From: Aestuariivirga litoralis
Lineage (GTDB): Bacteria > Pseudomonadota > Alphaproteobacteria > Rhizobiales > Aestuariivirgaceae
NCBI RefSeq assembly: GCF_003234965.1
Contig: NZ_QKVK01000002.1
Location: forward strand, 372,001-436,000
Length of the DNA: 64,000 nt
Direction of reading: 5' to 3'
The notes beneath the pieces were generated by a model, which was not told the DNA's origin, did not search any database, and saw only the letters and a program-made list of their open reading frames with translations. The first letter of the stretch is position 1; every line of letters starts with the position of its first letter. A program made the translations under genes and the position numbers. Below, piece by piece: positions 26,490 through 51,138 of this stretch.

Positions 26490-26515
26490 GGAACCGACAA
26501 GCGAGGAACAACGTT
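26490..26515 (+). promoter_or_regulatory. EcfG-type promoter upstream of AI-2E transporter
   Basis: GGAAC (26490-26494), 17-base spacer, CGTT (26512-26515): exact match to the alphaproteobacterial general-stress sigma factor consensus, about 70 bases before the transporter ATG. Confidence 0.8.
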
Positions 26516-26586
26516 CCGCGTGAGTAACCGGGTCCGGACGGCATCGATAAGACCCGTGGCGCCCCGACAATGTGAAGGAAACCGCC

Positions 26587-28383
26587 ATGCGGCCCCTGCC
26601 TGCCACGGTCTATCGCGAAAACAGCCTGGGGCCCGCGCCGGGCCAGGGGCTGGTCAACGGCCTCATCATCTTTCTCGCCATCTGCGCCATCCTTTATGCG
26701 GGTGCGGAAATCCTCATTCCGGTGGCGCTGGCCATCCTGCTGTCCATCCTGCTCGCCCCCGTCGTCACCGGGCTGCAGCGGCTGCGCCTGCCCAAGGCGC
26801 TGGCGGCCATCGTGACGGTGGTGATGGCGGCGCTGGTGGTGGCGGTGCTGGCGGGCTTCGTGGCCTCGGCCGTCACCAATCTGGCGGCCGACCTGCCCTC
26901 CTACCAGTCCAGCCTGCGGGAGAAGGCCCAGAACCTGAAATCAATGACCACCGGCGGCGGCACGCTGGAGCGGGCGGCGGGCGTGCTGGAGAGCCTGCGC
27001 AAGGAACTCGACCGGCCCGAACAGCCGCGTTCCGCCGCAACCGAGCCGGTGAAGCCGATCCCCGTCGAGATCCGCGAGGTCACCGGTCCCTTCACCTCGC
27101 TCGAGTCGATCCTGTCGCTGCTCATCCATCCGCTGACGCAGCTGGGCATCATCATCCTGATGCTCACCTTCTTCCTCATCTACCGCGAGGACTTGCGAAA
27201 CCGGCTGATCCGGCTGGCCGGCACCGGCGACATTCACCGCACCACCACAGCCATCGACGAGGCGGGCCGGCGCCTCAGCCGGCTCTTTGCAACACAGATG
27301 ACCATCAACGCCGCCACCGGCGCCTTCATCGGCACGGCCTTGTTCGTGATCGGCGTTCCGGGTGCGGCGCTGTGGGGCACGCTGACCATGATCCTGCGCT
27401 TCGTGCCCTATGTGGGCACGCTGCTGGCGGCCATCTTCCCCATCATCATCGCCGCCGCCGTGGGCGATGGCTGGACCCTGGCACTGGTCACGCTGGGCGT
27501 GGTGGTGGTGACGGAAACGATGGTGGGGCATGTGCTGGAGCCCTTGTTCTTCGGCCGCAGCACCGGCCTCTCCCCCGTTGCCGTGGTGGTCGCCGCCGCC
27601 TTCTGGACGGCGCTGTGGGGGCCGGTGGGGCTGGTGCTGTCCACGCCCATGACCATCGTGCTGCTGGTGGTGGGCCGCCACATCGAGGCGCTGCAGTTCC
27701 TCGAGGTCCTGCTCGGATCGAAGCCGGTGCTGACGCCGGACCATGCCTTCTATCAGCGCATGCTGGCCAACGACCCGGTGGAGGCCGCCGAAGGGGCCGA
27801 AACCTATGTCGAGGAGAAGGCGCTCGACAGGTATCTCGCCGAGGTGGCGGTGCCGGGCCTGGTGCTGGCCCAGAACGACAAGGCGCGCCAGGTGCTCACC
27901 GAGGACCGCGAAGTCACGGTGGTGAGTGCCTATTCCGAACTGCTGGAGGAGCTGTGGCCGGAGGGCGATGCCGCAGCCGATGCCGCTTCGCCCGTAGTCG
28001 TCATCGCCGGGCATGGCGCGCTGAACTTTGCCGCGGCCCTGTCGCTGTCGGCCTTCCTGCGTCTCAAGGGCGTGCCGCACCGCCTGCTGCCGCCCGATGC
28101 CGTGCAGCCGGGAAAATTTCCTGACGGGATGGCGGAGGGCGCCGCCATTGCCTGCCTGTGTTATCTCACCGCGCCTTCCGAGGCGCGCTATTCCTATGTC
28201 GAGAAGCGCATTGCACAGAGGATGCCGGGGGCGCGCATTCTCGGCGTCGCCTGGCGCGAGGTGGAGGATGCGCGCAGCATGCTGGCCCCCGAGCACGCGC
28301 TTGCCTTGCTGCCCTCCGCGGACCTTGCGCATGCCACGGAAACGCCTCGGTCCAGCCCCGAACTGACGGTTGCAACACGCTGA
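26587..28383 (+). CDS. AI-2E family transporter (PerM/YdiK-type) with long C-terminal domain
   Basis: 598-residue inner-membrane protein. About eight hydrophobic segments lie in residues 15-370, including a GAALWGTLTMILRFVPYVGTLLA block that matches the family core. Residues about 385-598 form a soluble domain without recognised motif, making it much longer than the typical 350-residue member. The family includes AI-2 exporters and Na+/H+ antiporters, so the cargo is uncertain. The ATG at 26587 is preferred over a GTG at 26572 because GAAGGAAA sits just upstream. An exact EcfG promoter precedes it, placing it in the stress regulon. Confidence 0.85.
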   Translation: MRPLPATVYRENSLGPAPGQGLVNGLIIFLAICAILYAGAEILIPVALAILLSILLAPVVTGLQRLRLPKALAAIVTVVMAALVVAVLAGFVASAVTNLAADLPSYQSSLREKAQNLKSMTTGGGTLERAAGVLESLRKELDRPEQPRSAATEPVKPIPVEIREVTGPFTSLESILSLLIHPLTQLGIIILMLTFFLIYREDLRNRLIRLAGTGDIHRTTTAIDEAGRRLSRLFATQMTINAATGAFIGTALFVIGVPGAALWGTLTMILRFVPYVGTLLAAIFPIIIAAAVGDGWTLALVTLGVVVVTETMVGHVLEPLFFGRSTGLSPVAVVVAAAFWTALWGPVGLVLSTPMTIVLLVVGRHIEALQFLEVLLGSKPVLTPDHAFYQRMLANDPVEAAEGAETYVEEKALDRYLAEVAVPGLVLAQNDKARQVLTEDREVTVVSAYSELLEELWPEGDAAADAASPVVVIAGHGALNFAAALSLSAFLRLKGVPHRLLPPDAVQPGKFPDGMAEGAAIACLCYLTAPSEARYSYVEKRIAQRMPGARILGVAWREVEDARSMLAPEHALALLPSADLAHATETPRSSPELTVATR

Positions 28384-28408
28384 ATCACAAGGGTTTTACC
28401 TGATGTTC

Positions 28409-28434
28409 GGAACCAGGTGGGTGGCTCTCCCGTT
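28409..28434 (+). promoter_or_regulatory. EcfG-type promoter upstream of csbD-like gene
   Basis: GGAAC (28409-28413), 17-base spacer, CGTT (28431-28434); exact consensus, about 60 bases before the CsbD ATG. Confidence 0.85.
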
Positions 28435-28493
28435 AGGTTGGCAGCGGTGCAGGATTGCACCACGCAATGTCAACCAACCCAGGAGAGTGTCGC

Positions 28494-28691
28494 ATGGACT
28501 GGGATCGCATCGAAGGTAACTGGAAGACGTTCAAGGGCCGCGCCAAGCAGCAGTGGGGCCGGCTGACGGATGACGACATCAACATGGTGGAAGGCCGCCG
28601 CGAGGAGCTCGAGGGCCGGCTGCAGCAGCAGTATGGCTATGCAAAAGACCGTGCACGGAGCGAAGTGGACAGCTGGCTGAACTCGCTCTGA
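28494..28691 (+). CDS. CsbD family stress protein
   Basis: 65-residue hydrophilic protein of the CsbD/YjbJ family, whose members accumulate under general stress; the biochemical role is not known. The family pattern MDWDRIEGNWKTFKGRAKQQWG and LTDDDINMVEGRREELEGRLQQQYG covers nearly the whole protein. AGGAGAG at 28481-28487 supports the ATG at 28494. An exact EcfG promoter lies upstream and a 57-residue gene follows 14 bases later. Confidence 0.93.
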   Translation: MDWDRIEGNWKTFKGRAKQQWGRLTDDDINMVEGRREELEGRLQQQYGYAKDRARSEVDSWLNSL

Positions 28692-28705
28692 GCAGGGGAA
28701 CGGCC

Positions 28706-28879
28706 ATGAAAAGCCTCATCGCGGTGACGGTGCTGACCATCAGCCAGTTCACGGCCTTTCCCTTCCTCGCCATCGTCGCGGCCAATACGGCGCGCCACAG
28801 CGAGGCCCGGAGTGTCGATCCGGCCAACATGACCGTCGTCTACAAGACCGAGGACGGCCGCCGCTTCGAAACCATGTAA
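28706..28879 (+). CDS. Small 57-residue exported or membrane protein
   Basis: Short open frame MKSLIAVTVLTISQFTAFPF... of 57 residues. Residues 1-27 are hydrophobic with an N-terminal lysine, consistent with a signal peptide or single membrane anchor. The polar rest ends VVYKTEDGRRFETM. AGGGGAA lies about 8 bases before the ATG. It follows the CsbD gene by 14 bases and is closed by a strong terminator, so it is probably the second gene of an EcfG-driven operon. No family recognised. Confidence 0.65.
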   Translation: MKSLIAVTVLTISQFTAFPFLAIVAANTARHSEARSVDPANMTVVYKTEDGRRFETM

Positions 28880-28899
28880 CCGTCTCGCCACAAAAGGAA

Positions 28900-28927
28900 G
28901 GGCCCGGCATTGCGCCGGGCCCTTTTT
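28900..28927. terminator. Rho-independent terminator
   Basis: GGGCCCGGC stem, ATTGC loop, GCCGGGCCC stem, then TTTTT. It closes the csbD unit and, read the other way (AAAAGG... before the stem), may also serve the convergent ecfG transcript. Confidence 0.85.
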
Positions 28928-28938
28928 GATGGGTCTGA

Positions 28939-29490
28939 TCAGCCGTGGCCGGTCTTGGGCATCAGCGCCGCCTTGACCTCGGGCTCGGGGCCGAATTCGG
29001 AGGCTTCGTTGAGGTGCAGCAACTCGCCCAAACGGGCGCGGGCGCGGTTGACGCGGCTCTTGATCGTGCCCACCGCCACGCCGCAGATCACCGCCGCCTC
29101 CTCGTAGGACATGTCGCTGGCGCTGACGAGGAGCAGGGCTTCGCGCTGGTCGACCGGCAGCTGGCCGAGGGCCTGCTGCATGTCGGTCAGGTCCATGTGG
29201 CCGTCCTGTTCCGGGTGGACGCCGACATTGGCCGCGATGATGCCGTCGGCATCCTCCACCTCGCGCTTGCGCTTGCGGAACACCGTGTAGAACTCGTTGC
29301 GCAGGATGGTGAAGAGCCAGGCCTTCAGCTTGGTGCCGGGTTCGAAGCTCTCGCGGTTGGCCCAGGCCTTGAGCAGCGTCTCCTGCACCAGGTCATCGGC
29401 GCGGTCCACCTTGCCGGTGAGCGAGATGGCGAAGGCGCGCAGCGGCGGGATGAAGCCGATCAGGTCATTCCTGAACTGGTGATCGCTCAT
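28939..29490 (-). CDS. ecfG: General stress response ECF sigma factor EcfG
   Basis: 183-residue ECF15-type sigma factor. Region 2 (residues about 12-80) carries DDLVQETLLKAW and a KLKAWLFTILRNEFY segment; region 4 (about 105-160) has LPVDQREALLLV and the helix-turn-helix SYEEAAVICGVAVGTIKSRVNRARARL. It directs transcription from GGAAC-N16/17-CGTT promoters, eight of which I find in this window. It is downstream of nepR on the same strand (40-base gap) and divergent from phyR, the standard arrangement. Sequestered by NepR until PhyR is phosphorylated. Confidence 0.96.
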   Translation of the reverse strand: MSDHQFRNDLIGFIPPLRAFAISLTGKVDRADDLVQETLLKAWANRESFEPGTKLKAWLFTILRNEFYTVFRKRKREVEDADGIIAANVGVHPEQDGHMDLTDMQQALGQLPVDQREALLLVSASDMSYEEAAVICGVAVGTIKSRVNRARARLGELLHLNEASEFGPEPEVKAALMPKTGHG

Positions 29491-29530
29491 GACCGGGCCA
29501 CCATGCGGCTAAACTTCAGGTTGTCGCTCT

Positions 29531-29704
29531 TCACTCTGGCTTACCGCCGCCGGCCTTGTCGAGGTCGGCCAGGAGATCGAGAAAGCGCTGCGGAACCTCC
29601 TGCCGGGCAATGTCGTCGTAATAGGCCTTGAGCTTGCTGCTCACCGCCTCCTTGACCACCTGATGTCCGGAGGCCTTGTTTTTCTTGCCCGACGTATCGT
29701 TCAT
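29531..29704 (-). CDS. nepR: Anti-sigma factor NepR
   Basis: 57-residue anti-sigma factor that binds EcfG, and is itself captured by phosphorylated PhyR. The core SSKLKAYYDDIARQEVPQRF followed by LDLLADLDKA matches the NepR two-helix domain; the N-terminus MNDTSGKKNK is the usual disordered basic arm. It is encoded directly upstream of ecfG. The frame was found by translating the strand opposite phyR; an overlapping frame at 29541-29759 is a shadow of it. Confidence 0.92.
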   Translation of the reverse strand: MNDTSGKKNKASGHQVVKEAVSSKLKAYYDDIARQEVPQRFLDLLADLDKAGGGKPE

Positions 29705-29757
29705 GTTCCGAATTTCGCCCGTCCAACCCGCTGCATAGCGGCGGTTCAGTCCTGCAC

Positions 29758-29782
29758 AATGCGTGAAACCGCAGTTTGTTCC
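29758..29782 (-). promoter_or_regulatory. Near-consensus EcfG promoter for nepR-ecfG
   Basis: Read leftward: GGAAC (29782-29778), 16-base spacer, CATT (29761-29758), one base off CGTT. It lies about 54 bases before the nepR ATG and would give autoregulation, as known in other alphaproteobacteria. Confidence 0.6.
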
Positions 29783-29801
29783 AAAGAATTCTGCTAGGCT
29801 G

Positions 29802-29826
29802 GGAACCGCAGGCCGGGGCGCGCGTT
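29802..29826 (+). promoter_or_regulatory. EcfG-type promoter upstream of phyR
   Basis: GGAAC (29802-29806), 16-base spacer, CGTT (29823-29826); exact consensus, about 58 bases before the phyR ATG. Confidence 0.85.
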
Positions 29827-29884
29827 AACGCACCTGACGATCACCGAGGGAGGGCCGTGGCGTCACGCCATGCCGTATGTCTGA

Positions 29885-30679
29885 ATGACTCTGTCCGCTA
29901 CCGTTGCACCCCATCTTCCCTATCTCCGCCGCTATGCCCGTGCACTGACAGGTGCACAGTCCAGCGGCGACACCTACGTGGCGGCCGTGCTCGAGGCACT
30001 GATCGCCGATCCGGGCCTGATCGGCGCCGCCAGCACGCCGCGCATCGCCCTCTACAGGACGCTGTGCAAGCTGTGGGGTTCCATCCCCGTCAACGGCCAG
30101 CCGGAGGGCGGCCAGCCGGCCTGGGAGACGACCGTCCAGGGCCGGCTTTCCAACATCCCGGGCCCGGCCCGCCAGGTCTTCCTGCTCTCCGCCGTCGAGG
30201 GCTTCGAGCGCCGCGAGATCGCGGAAATCCTGCAGCGCCCGGATGCCGACGTCGAGCGCCTGTTCGACGAGGCCAACCGGCAGATCTCCGAGATGATCGC
30301 CAGCGACATCCTGATCATCGAGGACGAACCGCTGATCGCGCTCGACATCGAGGACACCATCACCTCGCTCGGCCACCGCTCCGTCGGCATTGCCCGGACC
30401 CACAAGGAGGCGGTGAAGCTTGCCCGCGAGAAGCGGCCGCAGCTCGTTCTCTCCGACATCCAGCTCGCCGACGGCAGCTCCGGCATCGACGCGGTGAACG
30501 ACATCCTCGGCGCGTTCGACGTGCCGGTGATCTTCATCACCGCCTTCCCCGAGCGCCTGCTCACCGGCGAAAGGCCGGAGCCCGCCTTCCTCATCACCAA
30601 GCCCTTCTCGCCCGAGATGGTGAAGGCGCTGATCGCCCAGGCCCTGTTCTTCGACCTGCGCTCCCGCAAGGCGGCGTAA
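29885..30679 (+). CDS. phyR: Anti-anti-sigma response regulator PhyR
   Basis: 264 residues: an N-terminal sigma-like domain (about 1-135) that mimics EcfG and a C-terminal receiver domain (about 142-258). The receiver has the acidic pair Glu146/Asp147, phosphoacceptor Asp191 in LSDIQLADG and a conserved Lys in the ITKPFSPE segment. Phosphorylated PhyR binds NepR and frees EcfG. It is divergent from nepR-ecfG, with an exact EcfG promoter upstream. No cognate HWE/HisKA2 kinase (PhyK) is visible in the window, so its input kinase is encoded elsewhere. Confidence 0.96.
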   Translation: MTLSATVAPHLPYLRRYARALTGAQSSGDTYVAAVLEALIADPGLIGAASTPRIALYRTLCKLWGSIPVNGQPEGGQPAWETTVQGRLSNIPGPARQVFLLSAVEGFERREIAEILQRPDADVERLFDEANRQISEMIASDILIIEDEPLIALDIEDTITSLGHRSVGIARTHKEAVKLAREKRPQLVLSDIQLADGSSGIDAVNDILGAFDVPVIFITAFPERLLTGERPEPAFLITKPFSPEMVKALIAQALFFDLRSRKAA

Positions 30680-30742
30680 CGCGCCCACGGGGCCGGCAGC
30701 GGGCCGGCCCCCGCCCTTGCATGCCGGGAGCCTGCATCCGAC

Positions 30743-31669
30743 ATGACGCCCATGGACAACCGGACCACCGCCATCGTGGTGAACCGCCACGCCGGCACCG
30801 TGCGCAGCATGGGGACGGAAGCGGTGCAGGCACTCATCGCCGATGCCTTCCCGGAGGCGCAGGTCAGCCTGCTCGATGGCAGCGACATCGAGGCGCATGT
30901 CCGCTCGCTGCTGGGCGGCGGCGCCATCGACCGCCTGATCGTCGGCGGCGGTGACGGCACGCTGGCCAGTGCCGCGGGGCTGGTGGCGGGCAGCAGCGTC
31001 GCCCTCGGCATCCTGCCGCTCGGCACCATGAACCTGATCGCGCAGACAGTGGGCATGGAGGCCAGCCTGGGCGCCGCACTGGCGCAGCTGCGCGATGCGC
31101 AGGCACAGCCCGTCGATGCCGGGCGCGCCAATGGCAGGCTGTTCCTGCACCATGTGTCGTTCGGCCTGCAGCCGCGCATGGTGCGCATCCGCGAGCGGCT
31201 GGGCTACAGCTCGCGCCTCACCAAGATGCTGGCGGCGGCCCGCGCCACGCTGGCGGTGCTGGTGAACCCGCGGTCGCTGCGCCTCGGCCTCACCATCGAC
31301 GGCCAGCTCGCAGAGATCCGGACGCCGGGGCTCATCGTCAGCAACAACCTCTATGAGAACGCCAGAATGCTGAAGCAGGCCAGGCTCGACGAGGGCGTGC
31401 TCGGCATCTATGCGCTGAGCCCCATGCCGCTCATTGCCTATCTGCGGCTGGCAATCGACGTGCTGCGCGGACGCTGGCAGGACAACGTGAACGTCCAGGA
31501 GCAGCGCGGCCGCCGGGTCGGCCTGGTGCGGCACCGCCGCCTGCGGCGCGACAGCCGCTCGATCCAGGCCACCGTCGACGGCGAACTCGCGCTGCTGGAC
31601 CTGCCGCTGCAAATTGAAAGCGAGCCCGGCGCACTGCGCCTGCTCATCCCGTCCGCAACGTCCGCCTGA
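30743..31669 (+). CDS. Diacylglycerol kinase-family lipid kinase
   Basis: 308-residue protein of the DagK/YegS/sphingosine kinase-like family. The nucleotide-binding motif GGGDGTLASAA lies near residues 73-83 and the second signature LGILPLGTMNLIAQ near 93-106. It would phosphorylate diacylglycerol or another lipid at the inner face of the membrane. The ATG at 30743 is used; one at 30752 is also possible. It lies downstream of phyR with a GC-rich hairpin (about 30689-30711) between them, so co-transcription is uncertain. Confidence 0.87.
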   Translation: MTPMDNRTTAIVVNRHAGTVRSMGTEAVQALIADAFPEAQVSLLDGSDIEAHVRSLLGGGAIDRLIVGGGDGTLASAAGLVAGSSVALGILPLGTMNLIAQTVGMEASLGAALAQLRDAQAQPVDAGRANGRLFLHHVSFGLQPRMVRIRERLGYSSRLTKMLAAARATLAVLVNPRSLRLGLTIDGQLAEIRTPGLIVSNNLYENARMLKQARLDEGVLGIYALSPMPLIAYLRLAIDVLRGRWQDNVNVQEQRGRRVGLVRHRRLRRDSRSIQATVDGELALLDLPLQIESEPGALRLLIPSATSA

Positions 31670-31684
31670 AGTCGCAAGACATGC

Positions 31685-31710
31685 GGAACCTCATGGTCGA
31701 ACCGGGCGTT
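31685..31710 (+). promoter_or_regulatory. EcfG-type promoter upstream of Thr/Pro-rich membrane protein
   Basis: GGAAC (31685-31689), 17-base spacer, CGTT (31707-31710); exact consensus, 52 bases before the ATG at 31762. It makes the in-frame ATG at 31681 impossible as start for this transcript. Confidence 0.82.
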
Positions 31711-31761
31711 TGGCTGCCATCGCACGCACACGGGCGTGCTGCCCAACGATCGGAGACTGCA

Positions 31762-32118
31762 ATGGCAGACAATATCGAGAACCATTACCATCAGAGGCCT
31801 CAGCGATCGGAATCTTCGGCAACCGGCTGGGTGCTGGGCGTCATCGTCGCCCTGCTCGCCATCCTTGCCCTTTGGTATTACGGCACGCACCGCGATGTCG
31901 TTTCGACCACCAACACCACCACCACGGTAACCACCGAGCCTCCGGCCGCCACGACGCCCGTGGCCCCGGCGCCCGAAGCACCGGCCACCACCACCCCCGA
32001 GGCGCCCGCCAACGGAACCACCGGAACGACGACCGGGACGACGGGCAGCAACAACGGCACCACCGAAACCGCCCCGGCCCCTGCGCCGGCACCGGCGCCG
32101 GCGCCTGCCAATCCGTAG
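31762..32118 (+). CDS. Single-pass membrane protein with Thr/Pro/Ala-rich tail
   Basis: 118 residues: a short polar N-terminus, one transmembrane helix (GWVLGVIVALLAILALWYYG, about 22-41), then a low-complexity tail rich in Thr, Pro, Ala and Asn that ends in an (AP)n run. The tail probably sits in the periplasm. CGGAG precedes the ATG. The protein has the same layout as the one at 44339-44815. The EcfG promoter and downstream terminator make it a single-gene stress unit. No known function. Confidence 0.78.
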   Translation: MADNIENHYHQRPQRSESSATGWVLGVIVALLAILALWYYGTHRDVVSTTNTTTTVTTEPPAATTPVAPAPEAPATTTPEAPANGTTGTTTGTTGSNNGTTETAPAPAPAPAPAPANP

Positions 32119-32136
32119 CGCTGCCTGACGCGCGAA

Positions 32137-32169
32137 AGCCCGGCCCGGGTTGAACGGGCCGGGCTTTTT
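32137..32169. terminator. Rho-independent terminator
   Basis: AGCCCGGCCCG stem, short loop GGTTGAA, CGGGCCGGGCT stem and TTTT; closes the Thr/Pro-rich gene and may also work for the convergent Crp-family gene. Confidence 0.85.
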
Positions 32170-32182
32170 CCTGCGCGCCGCC

Positions 32183-32929
32183 TCACGCTTCGGGGTAGAC
32201 GCCCTTCAGCACGGCGTGAAAGTGCTGCTTCACCACCTCGTGGCAGCTGCAGGCGCGGGCGCGCAACTGGTCCTCGTTCTTGACCACCAGATGGCCGCGG
32301 CGCACCGCCAGGGTGCCGTCACGCTTGAAGGTGCCGATGACACGGCTGATGTAGCTCCGGCCCACGCCCAGCATGGCGGCGAGCCGTTCTTGCGTAAGCG
32401 GCACCTCCTTCGAGCCCGACCGCTCGATGGCAGCCCCGATCCACTTGGCGGTGCGCTGCTCGATCGAGTGCGCGGCGTTGCAGGCAGCGGTCTGGAACAT
32501 CTGTGCCACCAGGCAATCGGCATAGCGCGAGAACAGGCTGTCGATGGCGCGCGAACGCGACTTGCATTCATCGAGCACGCTGACGGGGATGGACAGAAGG
32601 TCGCCGCCGGTCTGGATCGCAATGCGTGCGAAGGCCGGCAGGTTGCCCTGGCTGACGATGCCGCCAACCGCCCCTTCGCGCCCCACCAGCAGGGCTTCCA
32701 CGGCGCTGCTGTCGTCGGTCGAGACGAGGAAGGAGACAAGCGTGCGGTGACAGGGAAAATAGACCGTCTGCACGTTCTGCCCAGGATCGTAGAGAACGGT
32801 GTTGGAGGCACCCTGCAGGGCCCGCAGGTGCGGCCGCAGCATGTCAAGGTCGGGGCCGCGCAGCGCCAGCAGCAGGTTGTTCCCCGACAGCAGCGTGTCG
32901 ATCAGCGTGGACGTTTCATAATGCGCCAT
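32183..32929 (-). CDS. Crp/Fnr-family transcriptional regulator
   Basis: 248 residues: an N-terminal cyclic-nucleotide-binding-like beta-roll (about 20-140) and a C-terminal winged helix with the recognition region LTQERLAAMLGVGRSYISRVIGTFKRDG (about 178-205). No Fnr-type cysteine cluster is seen at the N-terminus, so it is unlikely to be an oxygen-sensing Fe-S form. The tail contains CSCHEVVKQHFH. It is convergent with the stress membrane protein and divergent from a single-domain response regulator. Signal unknown. Confidence 0.88.
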   Translation of the reverse strand: MAHYETSTLIDTLLSGNNLLLALRGPDLDMLRPHLRALQGASNTVLYDPGQNVQTVYFPCHRTLVSFLVSTDDSSAVEALLVGREGAVGGIVSQGNLPAFARIAIQTGGDLLSIPVSVLDECKSRSRAIDSLFSRYADCLVAQMFQTAACNAAHSIEQRTAKWIGAAIERSGSKEVPLTQERLAAMLGVGRSYISRVIGTFKRDGTLAVRRGHLVVKNEDQLRARACSCHEVVKQHFHAVLKGVYPEA

Positions 32930-33061
32930 GAATGGTCACTTCTGCACAGACAAACCTGTGTGATTCCGCTATCACTCAACACCCGGACCGGATGGCGGAA
33001 GCGCTGGGCGGGTTGCCTCCCCTGCAGGCCATTGGCTGCAGACTCCCGGATATCGGAATTT

Positions 33062-33086
33062 GGAACGCTCATGCCGGGCAATTGTT
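33062..33086 (+). promoter_or_regulatory. Near-consensus EcfG promoter before response regulator
   Basis: GGAAC (33062-33066), 16-base spacer, TGTT (33083-33086), one base off CGTT; 40 bases before the ATG at 33126. Confidence 0.5.
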
Positions 33087-44338: not shown

Positions 44339-44815
44339 ATGGCAACCACCCCGGGTCCGCGGCGGCGCGAAACCATTGCGGACAGCCGCGACGATGAGCG
44401 TGACACGCTCACCCCGATGCAGGAGCCGCTCGGCAGCATGGACCGCCCCGGCTCCCGGACCAGCGACCTCAACGAGGTGAACCTGCCGCCGGGCGAAACG
44501 GTGCGGCGCACCGGCAATCCCGGCACCACCGGCAGGCCGCCCTCGGACACAGCGGCGCGTGGCGGACGCAGCTTCGTCAGCACCTTCGCGATTGTGGCGG
44601 TGGTGCTGCTGGTGGCCTTCCTCATCGCCTTCTACTTGGGCACCAACCGCAATGACCTGGCCACCGGCACCGGCACGACCAACCCGCCGGTCGCCGACAG
44701 CAACAGCACGCCCACGAACGATGATGCCACGGGCAGCACGACGGCGCCCGCCCCGCAGACGGCGCCTGGAGCCGGCGATGCCAGCGGCAGCACAACGCCC
44801 CCGGCCAATCCCTGA
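44339..44815 (+). CDS. Single-pass membrane protein with Thr/Ser/Pro-rich tail
   Basis: 158 residues: a polar N-terminus (1-75) with LNEVNLPPGETVRRTGNPG, a membrane helix (about 82-104, FAIVAVVLLVAFLIAFYLG) and a low-complexity tail ending STTPPANP. Layout and tail composition match the protein at 31762-32118, suggesting paralogs. AAGGAGAAGG before the ATG is a strong ribosome site. Its stop overlaps the next start (TGATG), so it heads a three-gene stress operon with the 128-residue protein and the SDR. No known function. Confidence 0.75.
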   Translation: MATTPGPRRRETIADSRDDERDTLTPMQEPLGSMDRPGSRTSDLNEVNLPPGETVRRTGNPGTTGRPPSDTAARGGRSFVSTFAIVAVVLLVAFLIAFYLGTNRNDLATGTGTTNPPVADSNSTPTNDDATGSTTAPAPQTAPGAGDASGSTTPPANP

Positions 44816-45201
44816 TGTGCGACTACAGCCTTGAGCGGCAGACGAACCGCGCGGCGGTGACGGGGGAAAGCCTCGTCACCACCGCCTTTCCGGGATCCAC
44901 GACACTTGGATTCGCAGCAGCCGGGAGGCTCGATGTGGCCGTGTGCCTGAAGCCCGGCACGGAGCTCGCCTTCGCGGACGCCGTGGCGTTTACCGGGCTG
45001 TTCCGCTTCCTCCTGCGGGCGCGGGCGCAGGACTGCCGCACCGCGCGCTTCCGCCATGTGAACGAGGCCAACCCGTTGCTGCACCATGACGCGCTGGAGT
45101 TCGGCAGCGGCGAGGTGGTGCTTCTCACCCACCTGCGGCCCGGCCAGCAGGCCGTGGTGATCCAGCTTCCTGCCGTAACCTCGGCGCTGGTGCGGGCATG
45201 A
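44815..45201 (+). CDS. Conserved hypothetical protein (MCDYSLE... type)
   Basis: 128 residues beginning MCDYSLERQTNRAAVTGESLV, an N-terminus I associate with a small uncharacterised alphaproteobacterial family. No signal peptide or membrane helix; no catalytic motif recognised. The ATG overlaps the upstream stop (TGATG) and its own stop overlaps the SDR start (ATGA), so it is the middle gene of a coupled operon. Translation on this strand is supported by that tight packing. Confidence 0.7.
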   Translation: MCDYSLERQTNRAAVTGESLVTTAFPGSTTLGFAAAGRLDVAVCLKPGTELAFADAVAFTGLFRFLLRARAQDCRTARFRHVNEANPLLHHDALEFGSGEVVLLTHLRPGQQAVVIQLPAVTSALVRA

Positions 45202-46052
45202 GCGGCAAGCAGACACTGCCGCCGCAGCAGCAGGACCACCAGCCCGGCCGCGAGAGCGAGATGACGCCGCGACCCGATTTCACGCCGCGCTTTCGCGGCG
45301 CTGACCGTCTCGCGGGCAAGGTCGCCGTGATCTCGGGCGGAGACAGCGGCATCGGCCGGGCCGTCGCCGTCGCCATGGCACGCGAGGGGGCACGCATCGT
45401 CATCCTCTATCTCGAAGAACATGATGACGCGCGGGAGACCGCCCGCCTGGTGGCCGGTGAGGGCAGCGCGGCTGAACTCTTCGCCGGCGACCTCGGCTCG
45501 GAGCAGGTCTGCCGCGCGGCGATTGCCAGGGCCGTCGCGCGCTTCGGGCGCATTGACATTCTGGTCAACAACGCTGCCGAGCAGCACACCGTCGGGGGCC
45601 TCGAGGAGCTGACCGAGGAACAGATCACCCGCACCTTCCGCACCAACGTCTTCAGCATGTTCTTTCTCACCCGGGCGGCACTGGCGCACATGGGCGAGGG
45701 TTCGGCGATCATCAACTGCACGTCCGTCACGGCCTATCGCGGACATACGCAGCTGCTCGACTACTCGGCCACCAAGGGGGCCATCGTCACCCTGACGCGT
45801 TCGCTCTCACAGCTCCTCGCGGAGCGCGGCATAAGGGTCAATGCCGTGGCGCCAGGGCCGATCTGGACTCCGCTCATCCCCGCCTCGTTCGATGCCGGGA
45901 AGGTCTCGACCCACGGCAGCGATACGCCATTGAAGCGGCCGGGCCAGCCCAATGAGGTGGCGAGCTGCTTTGTCTTCCTTGCCAGCGCGGAGGCCTCCTA
46001 CATGACCGGCCAGGTGCTGCACCCCAATGGCGGCGAGATGGTGGGATCCTGA
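45198..46052 (+). CDS. Short-chain dehydrogenase/reductase (general stress protein 39-like)
   Basis: 284-residue NAD(P)-dependent oxidoreductase. Cofactor motif GGDSGIGRA (about 47-55), NNAA (about 124-127), catalytic Ser in NCTSV, and YSATK with Tyr and Lys. The N-terminal 40 residues, Gln/Pro-rich and leading to FRGADRLAGKVAVISG, match the YdaD/YhdF/GSP39 subfamily, often stress induced. It starts within the last codons of the upstream gene (ATGA). Substrate unknown. Confidence 0.9.
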   Translation: MSGKQTLPPQQQDHQPGRESEMTPRPDFTPRFRGADRLAGKVAVISGGDSGIGRAVAVAMAREGARIVILYLEEHDDARETARLVAGEGSAAELFAGDLGSEQVCRAAIARAVARFGRIDILVNNAAEQHTVGGLEELTEEQITRTFRTNVFSMFFLTRAALAHMGEGSAIINCTSVTAYRGHTQLLDYSATKGAIVTLTRSLSQLLAERGIRVNAVAPGPIWTPLIPASFDAGKVSTHGSDTPLKRPGQPNEVASCFVFLASAEASYMTGQVLHPNGGEMVGS

Positions 46053-46060
46053 CATCGCAG

Positions 46061-46086
46061 GGAACCGCATGGGGTGAGAACTGGTT
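46061..46086 (+). promoter_or_regulatory. Near-consensus EcfG promoter before DUF892 gene
   Basis: GGAAC (46061-46065), 17-base spacer, GGTT (46083-46086), one base off CGTT. Confidence 0.45.
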
Positions 46087-46297
46087 CTGAAGGCAGCCAG
46101 ACGGCAAGCAGCAGGCCAGGAACCACCCCATGCACAAGGAGAAGAGTGCCGATCTCGCGGGATGGCGTGATGCGCAGGCAACGCGCCTCGAAGCGGACTT
46201 CCGCGCCGCCCGCGCCGAACACCGCCAGCATCACGCCGAGGCCTTCGAGACATGGCGGCGGCGAAACCTCAATTTACCATCAGGCAAGGAGAACGAC

Positions 46298-46789
46298 ATG
46301 ACCGTGAACACCCTCAACGACCTTTTCATCGAGACGCTCAAGGATCTCTATTACGTCGAGAAGAAACTGGTGAAGACCCTGCCGAAAATGGCGCAGAAGG
46401 CGTCTTCCGACGAACTCAAGGAGGCCATCGAAAGCCACCTGGGCGAAACCGAAACCCATGTGCGCCGTCTGGAGCAGGTCTTCGAACTGCTCGACCAGAA
46501 GGCATCCGGCAAGACCTGCGAAGCGATCGAGGGCCTGATCCGCGAGGCCGAGGAGGTGATGGGGGAAATCGCAGACGAGCAGACGCTCGATGCTGCCATC
46601 ATCTCCTCGGCCCAGACGGTGGAGCACTACGAGATCGCCCGCTACGGCACGCTTGCCTGCTGGGCTGCCGAAATCGGCAACAGCGAGGTGGCGGAGCTGC
46701 TGGAGCAGACGCTGGAAGAAGAAAAGGCAGCCGACGAGAAGCTCTCGGAGATCGCCGAGGACGCGGTGAGCCAGCGCGCGGCGGCGTAA
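46298..46789 (+). CDS. DUF892 (YciE/YciF) ferritin-like protein
   Basis: 163-residue four-helix protein of the YciE/YciF family, linked to stress and iron/peroxide handling. Helix 1 reads [30 protein letters not shown]; carboxylate/His pairs appear in [18 protein letters not shown] and [16 protein letters not shown], typical di-iron positions. AAGGAG six bases before the ATG at 46298 fixes this start. The frame stays open back to an ATG at 46130, which would add a 56-residue basic, helical N-terminal arm; both starts are possible. A one-off EcfG promoter lies upstream. Confidence 0.87.
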
Positions 46790-46812
46790 GATCGCTCCGC
46801 AGTTCCTGATCT

Positions 46813-46890
46813 CATCATCGCCGGGCTTGTCCCGGCGATTCCTTTTTGGAGGCCGCGAAGAAGATGCCCGGAACAAGCCCGGGCATGATG
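46813..46890. repeat. REP-like palindrome pair, type A
   Basis: CATCATCGCCGGGCTTGTCC hairpin with T-run, then an inverted unit ending GGGCATGATG; the only full copy right of 25 kb that I found. Confidence 0.85.
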
Positions 46891-46922
46891 AGCAGCGGGA
46901 CCCATTGCGACACAACAGAGTG

Positions 46923-47978
46923 TCAATACCCCGTCATCTCCACATAGCCGACACCGGGATGACTGCCCGTGATGCGCACCGGGCCTTCCCAGTATTCAAC
47001 CTGGGTCTCCATCCAGGCATCCTCAATCACCGGCGCCGTCGTGACCGCGACGCCCCTCGCCGGCAGGGAGACATTCCACTGCACCGGCACGCGATGGCCC
47101 TTCATTTCCGCCCAGGCGCGCGGCGTGACCGTCAGGGCGCCGGGCGGCTGCGGCTCCGGCGTGCCATCGGGGTTGATCCAGGTGGCAGAGGTGAAGCCGT
47201 CTCCTTGGTCACGCAGGCGGAAACCCATGAGCTTCGCGCCGCTGTCGAAGTGGAAGGAGAACCAGTCCCAGCCCGTCTGGTCCTTGGCGAGGGGCTGTGA
47301 CGACCATTCATGGTCGAACCACGCCTGCCCCGTCACCACAATCTCCTTGCCGTCGACGGTGATGCTGCCCGTCACCCGATAGAAGGGCTGCGAGTAGTAA
47401 TAGCTCGCCTGGCCCTGCGCGGATTTCACCGAATAGCCGCGCTCGCCCTGCAGCACGAGCGGGCCTTGCGCGTCGAGTTCGAGGCGATAGGAGAAGCCCT
47501 CGCCCGCCGCGGTGATGGTGAGGGCGGACAGTTCATCCGCCGGCGGCTTCGCGTGGCCCACCATGTTCCAGTCGTCGATCGCGGCGGAAAAGGGTGCGAG
47601 GGTCACCCCCGCCTGCCCCACGCCGCCGCGGCCCACGCGCTCAGCCGAATAGTGGCGCTCGGCCGTGGTCAGCGCCGCATGGCCCATCCAAAGCTGCGGG
47701 CTCTGCCAGCCCGGCCTCTCCTCCGGTGCCAGTGCCGAGCGGAACAGCGTCCACTGCGCGCCATAGTCGCGGCCGTCGTCTCCCTTGAGGTTGGCGGTCA
47801 GGTACCACCACTCGATGCGGTAGTCGGGATGCGCGCCATGGTCGCGTGGGAACGCCAGCGGCACGCCGCGCCGCGGCATGGCGAAGCCCTGCGCATCGCC
47901 CCCCAGCCCGGCGAAGCCCTGTGCCAGCGCGGGAACCGCCATCAAGAGCAGCATCAGGATGATCAGCCTAGCGTTCAT
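46923..47978 (-). CDS. AttH/CrtC-like lipocalin-domain secreted protein
   Basis: 351 residues with a signal peptide (MNARLIILMLLLMAVPALAQ). The mature part has the AttH/hydroxyneurosporene synthase-like double lipocalin pattern: DYRIEWWYLTANL near the N-terminus and GQAWFDHEWSSQPLAKDQTGWDWFSFHFDSG in the middle. In the AttEFGH system such a protein partners an ABC exporter. Its ATG overlaps the permease stop by eleven bases, confirming an operon with the ABC genes upstream. Cargo unknown. Confidence 0.87.
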   Translation of the reverse strand: MNARLIILMLLLMAVPALAQGFAGLGGDAQGFAMPRRGVPLAFPRDHGAHPDYRIEWWYLTANLKGDDGRDYGAQWTLFRSALAPEERPGWQSPQLWMGHAALTTAERHYSAERVGRGGVGQAGVTLAPFSAAIDDWNMVGHAKPPADELSALTITAAGEGFSYRLELDAQGPLVLQGERGYSVKSAQGQASYYYSQPFYRVTGSITVDGKEIVVTGQAWFDHEWSSQPLAKDQTGWDWFSFHFDSGAKLMGFRLRDQGDGFTSATWINPDGTPEPQPPGALTVTPRAWAEMKGHRVPVQWNVSLPARGVAVTTAPVIEDAWMETQVEYWEGPVRITGSHPGVGYVEMTGY

Positions 47979-50379
47979 TGGCGAAGACCTTCACGAGATC
48001 GGCAGGCCGGCGGCGCGTCAGCCACAGGGCAGGCAGCAGCGCCGCCAGCACCGCGCTGGCCACCGCGAGCAGGAACAGCCGCAGCCAGTCCAGCGGGAAA
48101 AGATGCATCGGCAGGCGCCAGCCGAAGGCCTCGACATTGATGACGGCGAGCAGCATCCAGGCAAGCCCCAGCCCCACCGGCACGGCCGCCAGCATGGTGA
48201 AGCTCGCCAGCGCCGCACTGCGCAGCACTTCAAGGAGCGCCAGCCGCCTCAGCGCCAGCCCCATGGCCCAGGCGGGCGCGAGCTGCGACAGCCGCATGCC
48301 GGACAGGGTGAGCAGGCTGGCGAAGATCGCAAGCCCCGCCACACCCAGCGTCAGCACATTGAGGGCCGCCGTCACCGCAAAGGTGCGTTCGAAGATTTTC
48401 AGCGAGAAGTCCTTCACCGTGGCCTGGTTCACCACGTTCTCGAGTGGAAGATCGAAAGCCCGGCGCAGGTCTGCGGCCAGCTGCGGCGCCCTGTCGGGCG
48501 CAATCCGCACCGCGTAGCGCAGCCGGCTGGCATCGGGGAAGAGCTTCACCAGCATGTCGACACCGATGATCACCTGCCCCTTCGGGTTGCCATAATCCGA
48601 GAAGACCCCCACCAGCGGCAGGCTCACGCCGGCCTCCAGCGGAATGGTGTCACCGAGCCTGAGTGCCGCGCGGCGCATCAACTGCTCGTTGGCGAGAACG
48701 CCCTCGCCGCGCGCGATCCTGTCCCAGGCATCGGGCTCTGCCTCCAGCATCGGCCAATGGTCGCGATAGGTCGCATGGTCGGCGATGCCAAAGACCTGCA
48801 CCGGCTGGCCGAACATCCGCAGCTCGGCATTCCAGATCGGCAGCACCGCATCGCTGCGCTGGCGCAGCCACTCGCGCACCTGCAGCGACTCCGCGGCCGA
48901 ACGTGTGGTGACATAGAGCTCCGACGGCAGCCGCTGGTCCAGCCAGCCGACGAAGGTCTGGCGGAAGCTCTGCACCATGGTGCCAACGCCCGCATTGGCA
49001 GCGAGGGCCAGCAGCAGGGCCATCAACGCCAGCGACAGGCCGGGAAGCTGCTGCCGCGTGTCGGCCCAGAACCACTGCGCCACCACGCCCTTCGAGAGTG
49101 CCGCAGCGAGTTTCAGCAGCACTGACAGCAGCAAGGGCAAGATCAGGGCCGCCCCCAGCAGCATCGCGCCGAGTGCGGTGAAGCCGGCGACCAGTCCCGC
49201 TCCGAACCCCACGATCAGCCACGCAGCGGCCAGCAGCGCCAGCCCTGCCGCCGCCTGCAGCCGAAGGGAGCGTTCCGATGCAAGGCTCCAGGCCCGCGGG
49301 CGCGCGGGCGCAAGCAGCGGCATCGCCGCGATGCGCCACAGGCGGGACGCAGCGGAGGCGAGCGTGCCGGCCACGGCGATCGCCAGCCCCAGCCCCCACA
49401 CCGAGGGCCTGATCGACAGCGTGCCCGGCACCTCCGCGCCATAGAGCCCGCGCAGGCTCGCCGCCACGTCCGGCAGCAGAAGCGCGGCAACGCCATAGCC
49501 CAGCGCCACGCCGATCAGACCGGCGACGGTGGACAGCACGAGGAGTTCCGCCACCATCAGCCCGATGAGCGTGCGCAAGGGCAGGCCCACGGCGCGCAGC
49601 GTGCGGATCACCGGGCGGCGCTGCTCGAAGGCGAGGCCGATCGCCGAGTGCACGATGAACAGCCCGACGGCAAAGGCGAGGAGACCGAAGGCCGTGAGAT
49701 TGAGGTGAAAGCTGTCGGTCAGGCGCGACAGGTCGCTTTCCGCCACCGGTGCGCGCCGCACCAGATGTGGCGCCACCTCTGCCAGCGGTTTTGCCGCGGT
49801 TGGCTGCCGGGGGTCGATCAGCAGGCGTGACAACTGTCCCGGCGCATCGAGCAGGTCCTGTGCGATGCCGATATCGGTCAGGACCGTGCCGGACGGCAGC
49901 GCCTCGCTGATGCTGAGAGGTGGCGTCGCGGCCCCGGCAAGACGATCCGCCGTCTCGCGGGAGACGATGAACAGGCCGGGCGGCGTGATGAAGCGGGAAA
50001 GCCCGATGTCTTCCGCCCCGACATCGACCTGGGCGGCCTCGCGCGGCAGCGTGACGGGATCGATGCCGAGAATGCGCAGGCGCTCGCCATCAAATCGCTT
50101 CTCGCCCTCGATCACCGGCGACACCAGCCAGCCCGCCTTGCGCAGCGCAATGTAGTCGGATTGCGGTAACCGCATGCCGTCGGCGCGCACCAGCTGCTCC
50201 AGGCGGTCCTGCCCCACCACGGCGGCGGCGCGGGCATAGCTTGCACGGGCCTCGCCATTGATGGCCTGCACGGCAGACCACAGGGCGGTGGCCAGCGCCA
50301 GCCCCAGCAGCAGCATGGCCAGTTGCAGCCTGTGGCGCCGCCAGTGCGAGAGAAGGGCGAGGAAGCCCTGGGCCAGCAT
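47968..50379 (-). CDS. FtsX-type ABC transporter permease (AttFG-like, fused)
   Basis: 803-residue inner-membrane permease with two FtsX/MacB-like units in one chain: an N-terminal helix (about 15-35) and large periplasmic region, helices at about 215-235 and 262-310, a second set at about 355-470, another periplasmic domain (about 470-665), and C-terminal helices at about 670-790. It looks like the fusion of the two permeases of AttEFGH. Its start overlaps the ATPase stop by one base. This type moves lipoproteins or envelope molecules rather than small solutes. Confidence 0.87.
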   Translation of the reverse strand: MLAQGFLALLSHWRRHRLQLAMLLLGLALATALWSAVQAINGEARASYARAAAVVGQDRLEQLVRADGMRLPQSDYIALRKAGWLVSPVIEGEKRFDGERLRILGIDPVTLPREAAQVDVGAEDIGLSRFITPPGLFIVSRETADRLAGAATPPLSISEALPSGTVLTDIGIAQDLLDAPGQLSRLLIDPRQPTAAKPLAEVAPHLVRRAPVAESDLSRLTDSFHLNLTAFGLLAFAVGLFIVHSAIGLAFEQRRPVIRTLRAVGLPLRTLIGLMVAELLVLSTVAGLIGVALGYGVAALLLPDVAASLRGLYGAEVPGTLSIRPSVWGLGLAIAVAGTLASAASRLWRIAAMPLLAPARPRAWSLASERSLRLQAAAGLALLAAAWLIVGFGAGLVAGFTALGAMLLGAALILPLLLSVLLKLAAALSKGVVAQWFWADTRQQLPGLSLALMALLLALAANAGVGTMVQSFRQTFVGWLDQRLPSELYVTTRSAAESLQVREWLRQRSDAVLPIWNAELRMFGQPVQVFGIADHATYRDHWPMLEAEPDAWDRIARGEGVLANEQLMRRAALRLGDTIPLEAGVSLPLVGVFSDYGNPKGQVIIGVDMLVKLFPDASRLRYAVRIAPDRAPQLAADLRRAFDLPLENVVNQATVKDFSLKIFERTFAVTAALNVLTLGVAGLAIFASLLTLSGMRLSQLAPAWAMGLALRRLALLEVLRSAALASFTMLAAVPVGLGLAWMLLAVINVEAFGWRLPMHLFPLDWLRLFLLAVASAVLAALLPALWLTRRRPADLVKVFANER

Positions 50380-51035
50380 CAGGTGAGCCTTCCCGCCGTC
50401 AGGTGCAGGCGGCGGCCGAGCCGCGCCGCAAGCCGGGTCGAATGGGTGACCATCAGCAGCGCGGCTCCCGTTTCGGCGAGCAGCGCCAGCATGAGGTCCA
50501 GAACCGCGTCACCCGTCGCCTCGTCGAGATTGCCGGTAGGCTCGTCAGCGAGGATCAGCTGCGGCCTGCCCGCCAGAGCGCGGCCGATGGCCACGCGCTG
50601 CTGCTGGCCACCCGAGAGCTGTTCGGGGTAGCGCTCAAGGAGCTTCACCAGCCCCAGCCGCTCCGCCAGCCGATCCGTCCAATCCGCGTCATGGCGTCCA
50701 CCCAGTCGCGCCTGAAAGGCGAGGTTGTGGCCGACGTCCAGCGACGGGATCAGGTTGAACTGCTGGAACACCAGTCCCACGCTCACCCGGCGGAAGCTCG
50801 CCAGCTCCCGGTCCCCCAGCCGCGCGATGTCTTGGCCGCCGAAGCGGATGGCGCCCTGGTCCGGACGGTCGAGCCCGCCGGCCAGGTGGAGCAGCGTGCT
50901 CTTGCCGCTCCCCGACTCGCCCGTCAGGGCCAGGCTCTCGCCCGCGTCCAGCGCCAGGCTCACGCCGCGCAGCACGTGCAGAATGCCTTCCCCGGTGGGG
51001 TAGGACTTGCTCACATCCGCCAGTTCAAGAAGCAT
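50379..51035 (-). CDS. ABC transporter ATPase (LolD/MacB-like, AttE-like)
   Basis: 218-residue ATPase: Walker A GESGSGKST (about 36-44), signature LSGGQQQRV and Walker B LILADEPTGNLDE, the MacB/LolD-type hallmark. Two adjacent ATGs (51038, 51035) are possible; upstream codons are not conserved. It is first in a leftward three-gene operon with the fused permease and the lipocalin-like protein. Confidence 0.92.
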   Translation of the reverse strand: MLLELADVSKSYPTGEGILHVLRGVSLALDAGESLALTGESGSGKSTLLHLAGGLDRPDQGAIRFGGQDIARLGDRELASFRRVSVGLVFQQFNLIPSLDVGHNLAFQARLGGRHDADWTDRLAERLGLVKLLERYPEQLSGGQQQRVAIGRALAGRPQLILADEPTGNLDEATGDAVLDLMLALLAETGAALLMVTHSTRLAARLGRRLHLTAGRLT

Positions 51036-51112
51036 CATCGATCCTGTTGCCGCAACCCGCATCCTACGCAGGCCAGTGCCCAGCGGACCCGTGCAGAGAT
51101 GCCGCATGCCCG

Positions 51113-51138
51113 GGAACGGCCGGCCCCGGGCGGCCGTT
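51113..51138 (+). promoter_or_regulatory. EcfG-type promoter upstream of secreted protein
   Basis: GGAAC (51113-51117), 17-base spacer, CGTT (51135-51138); exact consensus, 30 bases before the ATG at 51168. Confidence 0.78.

Follow-up and report, generated by a model that had tools for sequence, protein, structure and literature searches.

The general stress response has been described as present in nearly all free-living Alphaproteobacteria (PMC3892343), and it is governed by a partner switch between PhyR, NepR and the sigma factor EcfG (PMC8103513; PMC3892343). The nepR-ecfG/phyR locus usually, though not universally, has a kinase gene nearby (PMC8103513), and the EcfG-regulated genes reported for Sphingomonas melonis Fr1 include those for Ku, a cAMP-binding regulator, a PRC-barrel protein and general stress protein 26 (PMC6599016). 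Here, we describe such a locus in a 64-kb stretch of the Aestuariivirga litoralis genome (contig NZ_QKVK01000002.1, positions 372,001 to 436,000; hereafter the window) and compare it with relatives that lack EcfG. Like the nepR-ecfG/phyR locus of ECF15 systems, it has nepR-ecfG divergent from phyR and EcfG-type promoters on both arms, the one on the nepR side being a variant, and, as in the S. melonis list, genes of the kinds named above carry EcfG-type sites in the genome that holds the window (G000; 4.23 Mb, 26 contigs). Unlike the usual ECF15 locus, no histidine kinase was called in 24-53 kb (none of the HWE/HisKA_2 type, with HRXXN, among the genes called and scanned there), HWE kinases with EcfG sites being found on other contigs (loci L183 and L188), and the regulon is laid out in three blocks between metabolic genes. 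EcfG paralogues reportedly occur in Rhizobium etli (EcfG1 and EcfG2) and in Sphingopyxis; G000 likewise has a second EcfG, beside an HWE kinase gene and a second AI-2E gene with EcfG sites, and, unlike in those comparisons, 38 of 60 genomes of one family are without EcfG here.

A general-stress sigma factor that is missing from a relative together with its promoters is known from the Bacillus cereus group, in which Bacillus cytotoxicus has no sigB operon (PMC3485630). In that case, B. cytotoxicus has orthologues of 20 of the 47 core genes, and gain was the favoured reading; here, in contrast, none of the 22 local genes is left, and loss is what the slots indicate. From the sequence comparisons below, we consider it likely that the window holds a general stress response locus and that, after EcfG was lost from certain relatives, the genes depending on it alone were purged while their neighbours were kept. 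In the literature searched, mostly outside subscription papers, we found no report of a loss of this system in free-living alphaproteobacteria. Close relatives with or without EcfG, in which most of the local regulon follows the sigma factor, amount to natural knockouts, and these let one ask which genes depend on EcfG alone, how life proceeds without the response and how a regulon dissolves.

The nepR-ecfG/phyR core and its promoter cluster

Genes in the window were called by our own likelihood procedure rather than a trained gene finder, and protein families were assigned by Pfam and NCBIfam profile scans. The core spans 28939-30679. It comprises a predicted extracytoplasmic function (ECF) sigma factor of EcfG type (28939..29490, minus strand), with Sigma70_r2 and r4_2 domains, similarity to PhyR_sigma2 and a match to NF009199 of 262 bits against a cut-off of 219; an adjoining NepR anti-sigma factor (29531..29704, minus strand), which matches PF18557 above the cut-off (46.1 vs 25.7) and falls far below that of the equivalog model NF051865 (19 against 100); and, divergent from both, PhyR with a sigma-like domain and a receiver (29885..30679, plus strand; PF22029, PF22233 and PF00072; NF006623 358 vs 240). 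The nearest relative of this PhyR that bears a genus name comes from an Aestuariivirga metagenome-assembled genome (84% identical), while one from an alphaproteobacterial metagenome-assembled genome is 93% identical.

GGAAC-N16/17-CGTT promoters were found on core and target genes, nepR-ecfG itself having a CATT variant. Exact matches to this motif number nine in the window, all within 26490-51138 and none elsewhere in it, as compared to 0.65 on average and at most 3 in 100 dinucleotide shuffles of the window. An earlier note, made from the letters alone, had listed eight; the coordinates and strands of all eight are correct, and its total was one short, as the site at 33064-33088 on the minus strand had been missed. 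The note had further placed its sites 10-77 bases upstream of gene starts, which agrees well with the 9-71 bases that we measured (71, 59, 58, 51, 9, 64, 42 and 29 bases from the end of CGTT to the gene start, in order of position); the ninth site lies 134 bases ahead of the gene for a Crp/Fnr regulator.

Across G000, 68 exact matches stand against 30 for a wrong-spacer control (N18/19). Their density is 9 in 24.6 kb (0.365/kb) around the core and 59 in the rest of the genome (0.014/kb), an approximately 26-fold difference, although the binomial p value of 3e-10 is optimistic, because the interval is defined by the sites themselves. An equal density everywhere, coding DNA included, therefore does not hold. 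Furthermore, in the fetched stretches of G000, 29 of 60 distinct N16/17 sites (the 59 outside the window cluster and 26490) lie in noncoding DNA upstream of a called gene, compared to 2 of 29 wrong-spacer sites (p 1e-4; 1 of the 30 control sites was left unscored for context). Two N16/17 sites, L005 (a third DUF892 gene) and L183:4087, were scored by the caller as having no gene, though a gene starts ~54-60 bp downstream. Here and below, Fisher and Mann-Whitney p values ignore relatedness.

The spacing itself stands out as well: 20 stretches from the family contain 105 sites with N16 or N17 and 1-7 per other spacer between 6 and 31, while 80 phyR loci, mostly from Rhizobium and its kin and sharing some family genomes with the 20 stretches, contain 344 (261 with N16, 83 with N17) and 4-20 at any other spacer. 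Around 71 full-length named phyR loci, 1-9 exact sites (mean 4.4) occur within ~10 kb on either side; 8 or 9 were found in 5 of the 71, the window has 8, and the relative G044 has 11 in 20 kb (L076). Thus, Alphaproteobacteria commonly have a cluster of promoters at phyR, and the window is at the rich end. Outside the window, putative targets in G000 include genes for ferritin-like, GSP26-like (our name for a pyridoxamine-oxidase-like family), trehalose-phosphatase, PRC-barrel, BrkB and L,D-transpeptidase proteins, as well as a second Ku, a second DUF892 protein, a second AI-2E protein and two HWE kinases.

Taken together, the core genes, the spacing peak, the gene-upstream context, the conservation and the family-wide motif excess described below support the earlier proposal of an EcfG regulon around nepR-ecfG-phyR. 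That proposal had placed the regulon within one stretch of ~25 kb; the sites do lie there, but not as a single unit, since the regulon falls into three blocks separated by other genes.

The locus in relatives without EcfG

The relatives come from a sample of 60 genomes of one family, 50 of which could be placed on an rpoB tree. This is a quick, single-gene tree, in which the branch order near G000 is open and G055 and G056 are represented by partial rpoB rows; ten genomes had no usable rpoB stretch (G020, G025, G029, G038, G040, G042, G044, G049, G051 and G052), 4 of them with EcfG. On this tree, five genomes without EcfG (G022, G045, G050, G055 and G037) fall among four that have it (G000, G012, G046 and G048).

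In the stretches fetched from these five, DNA and protein comparison recovered 0 of 22 block genes in each case, the only matches to the block's SDR oxidoreductase gene being to a kept paralogue, SDR2. The count of 22 was made after an unsettled frame near 36129-36431 had been dropped; a frame of 85 amino acids in that place matches no Pfam family. Ten flanking or interleaved genes were sought as well, and 10, 10, 10 and 9 of them are present in G022, G050, G055 and G037, respectively, with their order kept. G022, G050 and G055 are collinear with the window through the PEP hydrolase-like, kinase-like, RuBisCO-like, FadR, BKACE, aldo/keto reductase (AKR), Hyi-like, BLUF, FolE, CrtC, FtsX, ABC, cupin and SDR2 genes. 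Missing from between the kept genes is the DNA at 26.49-33.56, ~35.6-46.92 and 51.09-51.9 kb, which corresponds to blocks B1 (26485..33560), B2 (35606..46922) and B3 (51093..51880; its gene is missing also from the EcfG-containing G012). Kept between the blocks are the genes for a Hyi-like isomerase, a BLUF protein and GTP cyclohydrolase I (FolE) at 33601..35534 and, at 46923..51038 on the minus strand, those for a CrtC-lipocalin, an FtsX permease and an ABC ATPase. The DNA search of the EcfG-minus genomes covered 16.5-36.4 and 44-63.9 kb of the window, among the matches listed; the remaining genes of 36.4-44 kb were compared in the fetched stretches of the relatives alone, and genome-wide absence covers EcfG, PhyR, DUF892, Ku and CsbD.

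The junctions are tight, with 132 bp (AKR-Hyi), 26 bp (FolE-CrtC) and 85 bp (ABC-cupin) between the aligned parts in G050. Alignment puts the left edge of B1 five bases ahead of the first promoter's GGAAC. The right edge of B1 lies near the stop codon of a response-regulator gene, and this codon overlaps what we read as a CTAGTCTT-like element, common to the window and the empty genomes, before the Hyi-like gene. The 93 kb fetched from the EcfG-minus relatives contain no exact motif and no block remnants beyond a dispersed repeat (46813-46892 in the window) and a 50-bp SDR stretch within SDR2. All nine exact sites lie inside the missing DNA, 26490 and 51113 being near its edges by construction. 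Together with six one-base variants, they stand ahead of 15 of the 16 transcription units assigned by us to the three blocks, compared to 1 of 7 kept units (p 0.0005).

The absence extends beyond the locus, as none of the five empty genomes has a match to the DUF892 and Ku families, of which G000 carries three and two copies. Other unlinked targets could be followed in ~23% of G022, where 1 of 28 putative targets has an orthologue (at L010), in comparison to 7 of 90 neighbours and 17 of 83 genes at control sites. At three of the four loci with a neighbour found in G022, the target is missing (L008, L025 and L026); this sample is thin, as 3 kb separate L025 from L026 and L008 has as its target a low-complexity protein of 53 amino acids.

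Distribution of EcfG across the family

Full-length PhyR and a close EcfG (E below 1e-50; other family genomes have more distant ECF factors) are both present in the same 22 of the 60 genomes and both missing from the other 38. Within the window's genus, 15 of 28 genomes have both. The motif follows this division: the pooled ratio of N16/17 to N18/19 matches is 1.58 in the 22 EcfG-plus genomes, none of which is below 1, and 0.94 in the 38 EcfG-minus genomes (Mann-Whitney p 4e-7 over the family and 0.002 within the genus), with single genomes overlapping. Families encoded in the blocks largely follow it as well, with DUF892 in 20 of 22 EcfG-plus and 1 of 38 EcfG-minus genomes, Ku in 10 of 22 and 0 of 38, and CsbD in 22 of 22 and 5 of 38.

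On the rpoB tree, the presence of EcfG changes at least 11 times, or was lost 16-17 times if it had a single origin. Among 10 independent pairs, DUF892 follows EcfG in 8-10 and goes the opposite way in none (median p 0.004), CsbD follows it in 8-10, and Ku in 4, the 6 remaining pairs not differing (p 0.125). The clade of G000, G012, G046 and G048 seen with rpoB is not rejected by PhyR (p 0.29), which speaks for loss and against a recent transfer.

Loss, gain or exchange

In the mechanism that we propose, phosphorylated PhyR would draw NepR off EcfG, as in the partner switch of the literature, and the freed EcfG would direct RNA polymerase to GGAAC-N16/17-CGTT promoters. The block genes would be transcribed mainly from these; once EcfG was lost, they would have fallen silent, come under no selection and been deleted, and neighbours with promoters of their own would have been retained. 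If so, EcfG would be the sole requirement of the genes for the Crp/Fnr regulator, the response regulator, LigD-Ku, the diacylglycerol-kinase (DAGK)-like protein and the SDR, but not of the AKR, Hyi, BLUF, FolE, CrtC-FtsX-ABC and cupin genes, and the pattern of presence and absence would be a natural-knockout map of the sole EcfG dependants. Whether this can be generalized, so that the family's general stress response would be a repeatedly lost all-or-nothing module whose dependants are removed unit by unit, even from between housekeeping genes, we regard as an even bet; in that case, a comparison of sister genomes would read out the true dependants of a sigma factor without experiment.

B1 and B2 occupy the same slots in G048, G000 and G012, and B3 does so in G048 and G000. 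Since these same slots are filled in genomes surrounding the empty ones, a loss in G037 and in the group of G022, G045, G050 and G055 is favoured. The reverse, in which the empty arrangement came first and a sugar-acid catabolic cluster, along with its neighbours, later received the three blocks, is unlikely. It would fit the adjacency of the AKR and Hyi-like genes in G022, G050 and G055, which with the upstream RuBisCO-like, kinase-like and BKACE genes resemble one cluster split by B1, as well as the lack of block-gene remnants at the junctions, and in the Bacillus cereus group the SigB operon has been interpreted as gained (PMC3485630). However, independent insertion into identical slots, filled in genomes on either side of the empty ones, would be improbable, and signs of a mobile island are lacking: there is no integrase or transposase domain in the Pfam results of the scanned proteins, no tRNA gene in 20-58 kb, and no direct repeat longer than 9 bp at the block edges.

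Likewise unlikely is an exchange of alleles, by which filled and empty versions would have been swapped by homologous recombination through the kept genes. These genes would supply the homologous flanks, the history of PhyR conflicts with rpoB elsewhere in the family, and FtsX of G000 is nearer to that of four empty genomes (85-86%) than to that of G012 (81%). Between G000 and G048, though, block genes are 39-83% identical and ten kept or flanking genes 60-88%; because the block genes are no more alike than the kept ones, the blocks do not look like recent imports into one of the two, and this speaks against a recent exchange between these genomes. Moreover, an exchange at this locus sits poorly with the absence of the unlinked DUF892 and Ku copies.

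It is improbable that the pattern has no regulatory cause, the blocks being ordinary accessory genes with EcfG as one among them. Block genes do vary among EcfG-plus genomes, and neighbours of unlinked EcfG sites are also rarer than control genes in the sampled part of G022 (7/90 vs 17/83); against this, only the EcfG-plus genomes show the pooled motif excess, and the unlinked DUF892 and Ku copies were lost along with EcfG. An assembly artefact, with the empty genomes being bins short of pieces, is largely excluded, since single contigs cross the junctions in G022, G050, G055 and G037 and G022, G050 and G037 are 99-100% complete, even though the genomes are multi-contig drafts and the completeness of G055 and G045 is 87% and 93%.

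Several observations weigh against a loss of EcfG followed by the purge of its dependants. Across the family, G027, which has neither EcfG nor PhyR, has 86 motif and 47 control matches (ratio 1.83, the sole EcfG-minus genome above 1.5), for which a recent loss of EcfG or a gap in the bin are suggested alternatives, and some EcfG-plus genomes are barely above the control (G046 67/64, G025 65/63 and G054 47/44). Five EcfG-minus genomes keep CsbD and one keeps DUF892, while two EcfG-plus genomes are without DUF892. The rpoB clade of G053, G017, G004, G034, G039 and G054 is rejected by PhyR (p 5e-13), so PhyR has moved or been sorted elsewhere in the family and not every change is therefore a loss. 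At the locus itself, G037 has the same order but without the kinase-like, RuBisCO-like, FadR and AKR genes, and G045 is rearranged, with 6 of the 10 kept genes (Hyi, BLUF, FolE, CrtC, FtsX and ABC) spread over two contig pieces and neither AKR next to Hyi nor cupin next to ABC. In EcfG-plus relatives, the block content is volatile (19 of 22 genes in G012, 15 of 22 in G048), and the kept genes vary too, 6 of 10 being found in the G048 stretches. The unlinked target at L010 is kept in G022. Finally, if exact sites alone are counted, the difference between lost (9/16) and kept units (0/7) is modest (p 0.014), and kept genes are not entirely free of sites: within 300 bp of them, in 16 gene-genome cases (11 from G012, 5 from G048), there are 1 exact and 3 one-mismatch sites. 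The exact one lies 178 bp ahead of the cupin gene in G012, where the 51168 gene of B3 is missing, and the others precede AKR and ABC in G012 and ABC in G048.

Gene content and promoter conservation of the blocks

Promoters were compared with those of G012 and G048, whose PhyR proteins are 93% and 82% identical to that of G000 and in which the spacers of the promoters have diverged. Where the gene has an orthologue, G012 retains an exact site in 8 of 8 cases and G048 in 7 of 8; for the six variants, a site with no more than one mismatch is present in 6 of 6 cases in G012 and 3 of 4 in G048. The orthologues of the holin-like, Thr/Pro-rich and 51168 proteins are weak (39-48% identity).

B1 begins with promoter P1 (26490..26515, plus strand), exact in G012 with a diverged spacer and the one exception, a one-base variant, in G048, ahead of an AI-2E family transporter gene (26587..28383, plus strand; PF01594). 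It is followed by P2 (28409..28434, plus strand; exact in both relatives) with the genes for a CsbD-like protein (28494..28691, plus strand; PF05532) and a 57-aa protein without family (28706..28879, plus strand). Between nepR and phyR lie the CATT variant of nepR-ecfG (29758..29782, minus strand) and P3 (29802..29826, plus strand), exact in both relatives. Downstream of phyR are genes for a DAGK family protein (30752..31669, plus strand; PF00781) and, behind P4 (31685..31710, plus strand; exact in both relatives), for a Thr/Pro-rich membrane protein without Pfam family, in which we read one hydrophobic stretch (31762..32118, plus strand). The Crp/Fnr-type regulator gene (32183..32929, minus strand; PF13545) and a gene for a single-domain response regulator (33126..33560, plus strand; PF00072) diverge from an overlapping promoter pair (33062..33088). 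The regulator gene probably belongs to the regulon, as its exact site P5 (33064, minus strand) also precedes the orthologue in G012 and G048; on the response-regulator side, the TGTT variant (33062, plus strand) has a variant counterpart in G012 and none in G048.

B2 opens with a gene for a protein of no recognized family (35677..36132, minus strand), absent along with the block, and a gene for a holin-superfamily-III-like membrane protein (36427..36810, minus strand; PF07332) behind P6 (36820..36844, minus strand), which is exact in G012 and G048 at 73-74 bp from the equivalent start. A 147-aa protein without family (36944..37387, minus strand) has an AGTT variant (37427..37451, minus strand), close to P7 (37455..37480, plus strand; exact in both relatives) of a CitMHS/TrkA_C transporter gene (37545..39314, plus strand; PF03600). 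P8 (39317..39342, plus strand; exact in G012) precedes a DUF6600 gene (39385..40761, plus strand; PF20245). Genes for a LigD DNA ligase (40814..43327, minus strand) and Ku (43329..44204, minus strand; PF02735) share a CATT variant (44227..44252, minus strand; CATT in G012), and a TGTT variant (44271..44296, plus strand; a different one-base variant in G012) faces the frames at 44339..46052 (plus strand) for Thr/Pro-rich protein 2, the 'MCDYSLE' protein (44815-45201) and the SDR oxidoreductase (45198-46052), which overlap or adjoin and are likely one transcript. The DUF892 gene (46130..46789, plus strand, or from 46298; PF05974) has a GGTT variant (46061..46086, plus strand). B3 consists of P9 (51113..51138, plus strand; exact in G048, its gene not found in G012) and the gene for a protein with a weak peptidoglycan-binding match (51168..51872, plus strand; PF01471 at E 3e-4, below cut-off). 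The pattern of absence suggests that the LigD-Ku, DAGK-like, SDR and 'MCDYSLE' genes, which have no exact promoter of their own, belong to the regulon and that AKR, despite a tempting variant site, lies outside it.

Variant and palindromic sites

The one-base variants that the earlier note had reported ahead of six genes (nepR, the response regulator, ku, a Thr/Pro-rich protein, DUF892 and a nutrient-deprivation-like protein, which we take to be that of 36944-37387) were all located. Matches with at most one mismatch, exact ones included, run at about twice the chance level in the window (21 vs 10.1 expected with N17, 24 vs 10.5 with N16), and a single variant alone is therefore weak evidence. 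G000, G012 and G048 share the same variant at nepR (CATT), the 36944 gene (AGTT) and DUF892 (GGTT), and, being the same in three genomes, some variants look like set, perhaps weaker, promoters.

At 33062-33088, the promoters of the two divergent regulators share a palindromic stretch, the -35 element of one lying over the -10 element of the other. GGAAC-N17/18-GTTCC ends at 26490 and 33062/33064 were considered as bidirectional promoters, which we reject except as a possibility for 33062/33064, where the palindrome occurs also in G012 and not in G048. The palindromic pattern peaks at spacers 17/18 in the 80 phyR loci; most of these occurrences, however, trace to a single orthologous position that lies downstream of phyR in Rhizobium and its relatives, where the context is same-strand, and palindromic sites are not enriched between divergent genes (9/35 vs 116/363 other sites). 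The AKR side of 26490 is not kept as a GGAAC site in G012, and bidirectionality at 26490 is further weakened because AKR is kept in three EcfG-minus genomes. In the literature searched, no paper joining EcfG, the general stress response and a bidirectional promoter was found.

The sequence at 40774-40799, after the DUF6600 gene, was rejected as a promoter and reads to us as a terminator-like hairpin. It mimics an EcfG promoter with one mismatch and is a source of false matches in motif scans. Conversely, a hairpin reading of 51113, with its GC-rich palindromic spacer, was set aside, as in G048 the site is likewise exact even though its spacer differs.

A second stress island and further features

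On a second small stress island at a contig end (L183 4087-9023, G000:C26), genes for a 'MCDYSLE' protein, an HWE kinase and an AI-2E transporter, all behind exact EcfG sites, accompany the second EcfG, which is 60% identical to the first. The 'MCDYSLE' protein of the window, which has no family, is similar to one in this island, and a 47% homologue stands behind an exact EcfG site in G053 (L071). A further exact site precedes genes for a GAF-PAS-PAS-HWE kinase and a single-domain receiver with FATGYG (L188 1890-4222; G000:C1:565.9-568.2 kb), and this kinase is a candidate sensor for PhyR. A second exact site at L188 faces the opposite way, with no gene start called for it.

Short dispersed repeats occur in the window at 24687-24772 and 46813-46892, the first having many copies in the relatives and the second lying at the right edge of B2. 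The genes at 20462-26448 and 33601-34365, encoding PEP hydrolase-like, sugar-acid kinase-like, RuBisCO-like, FadR, BKACE, AKR and Hyi-like proteins, resemble a single catabolic cluster split by B1.

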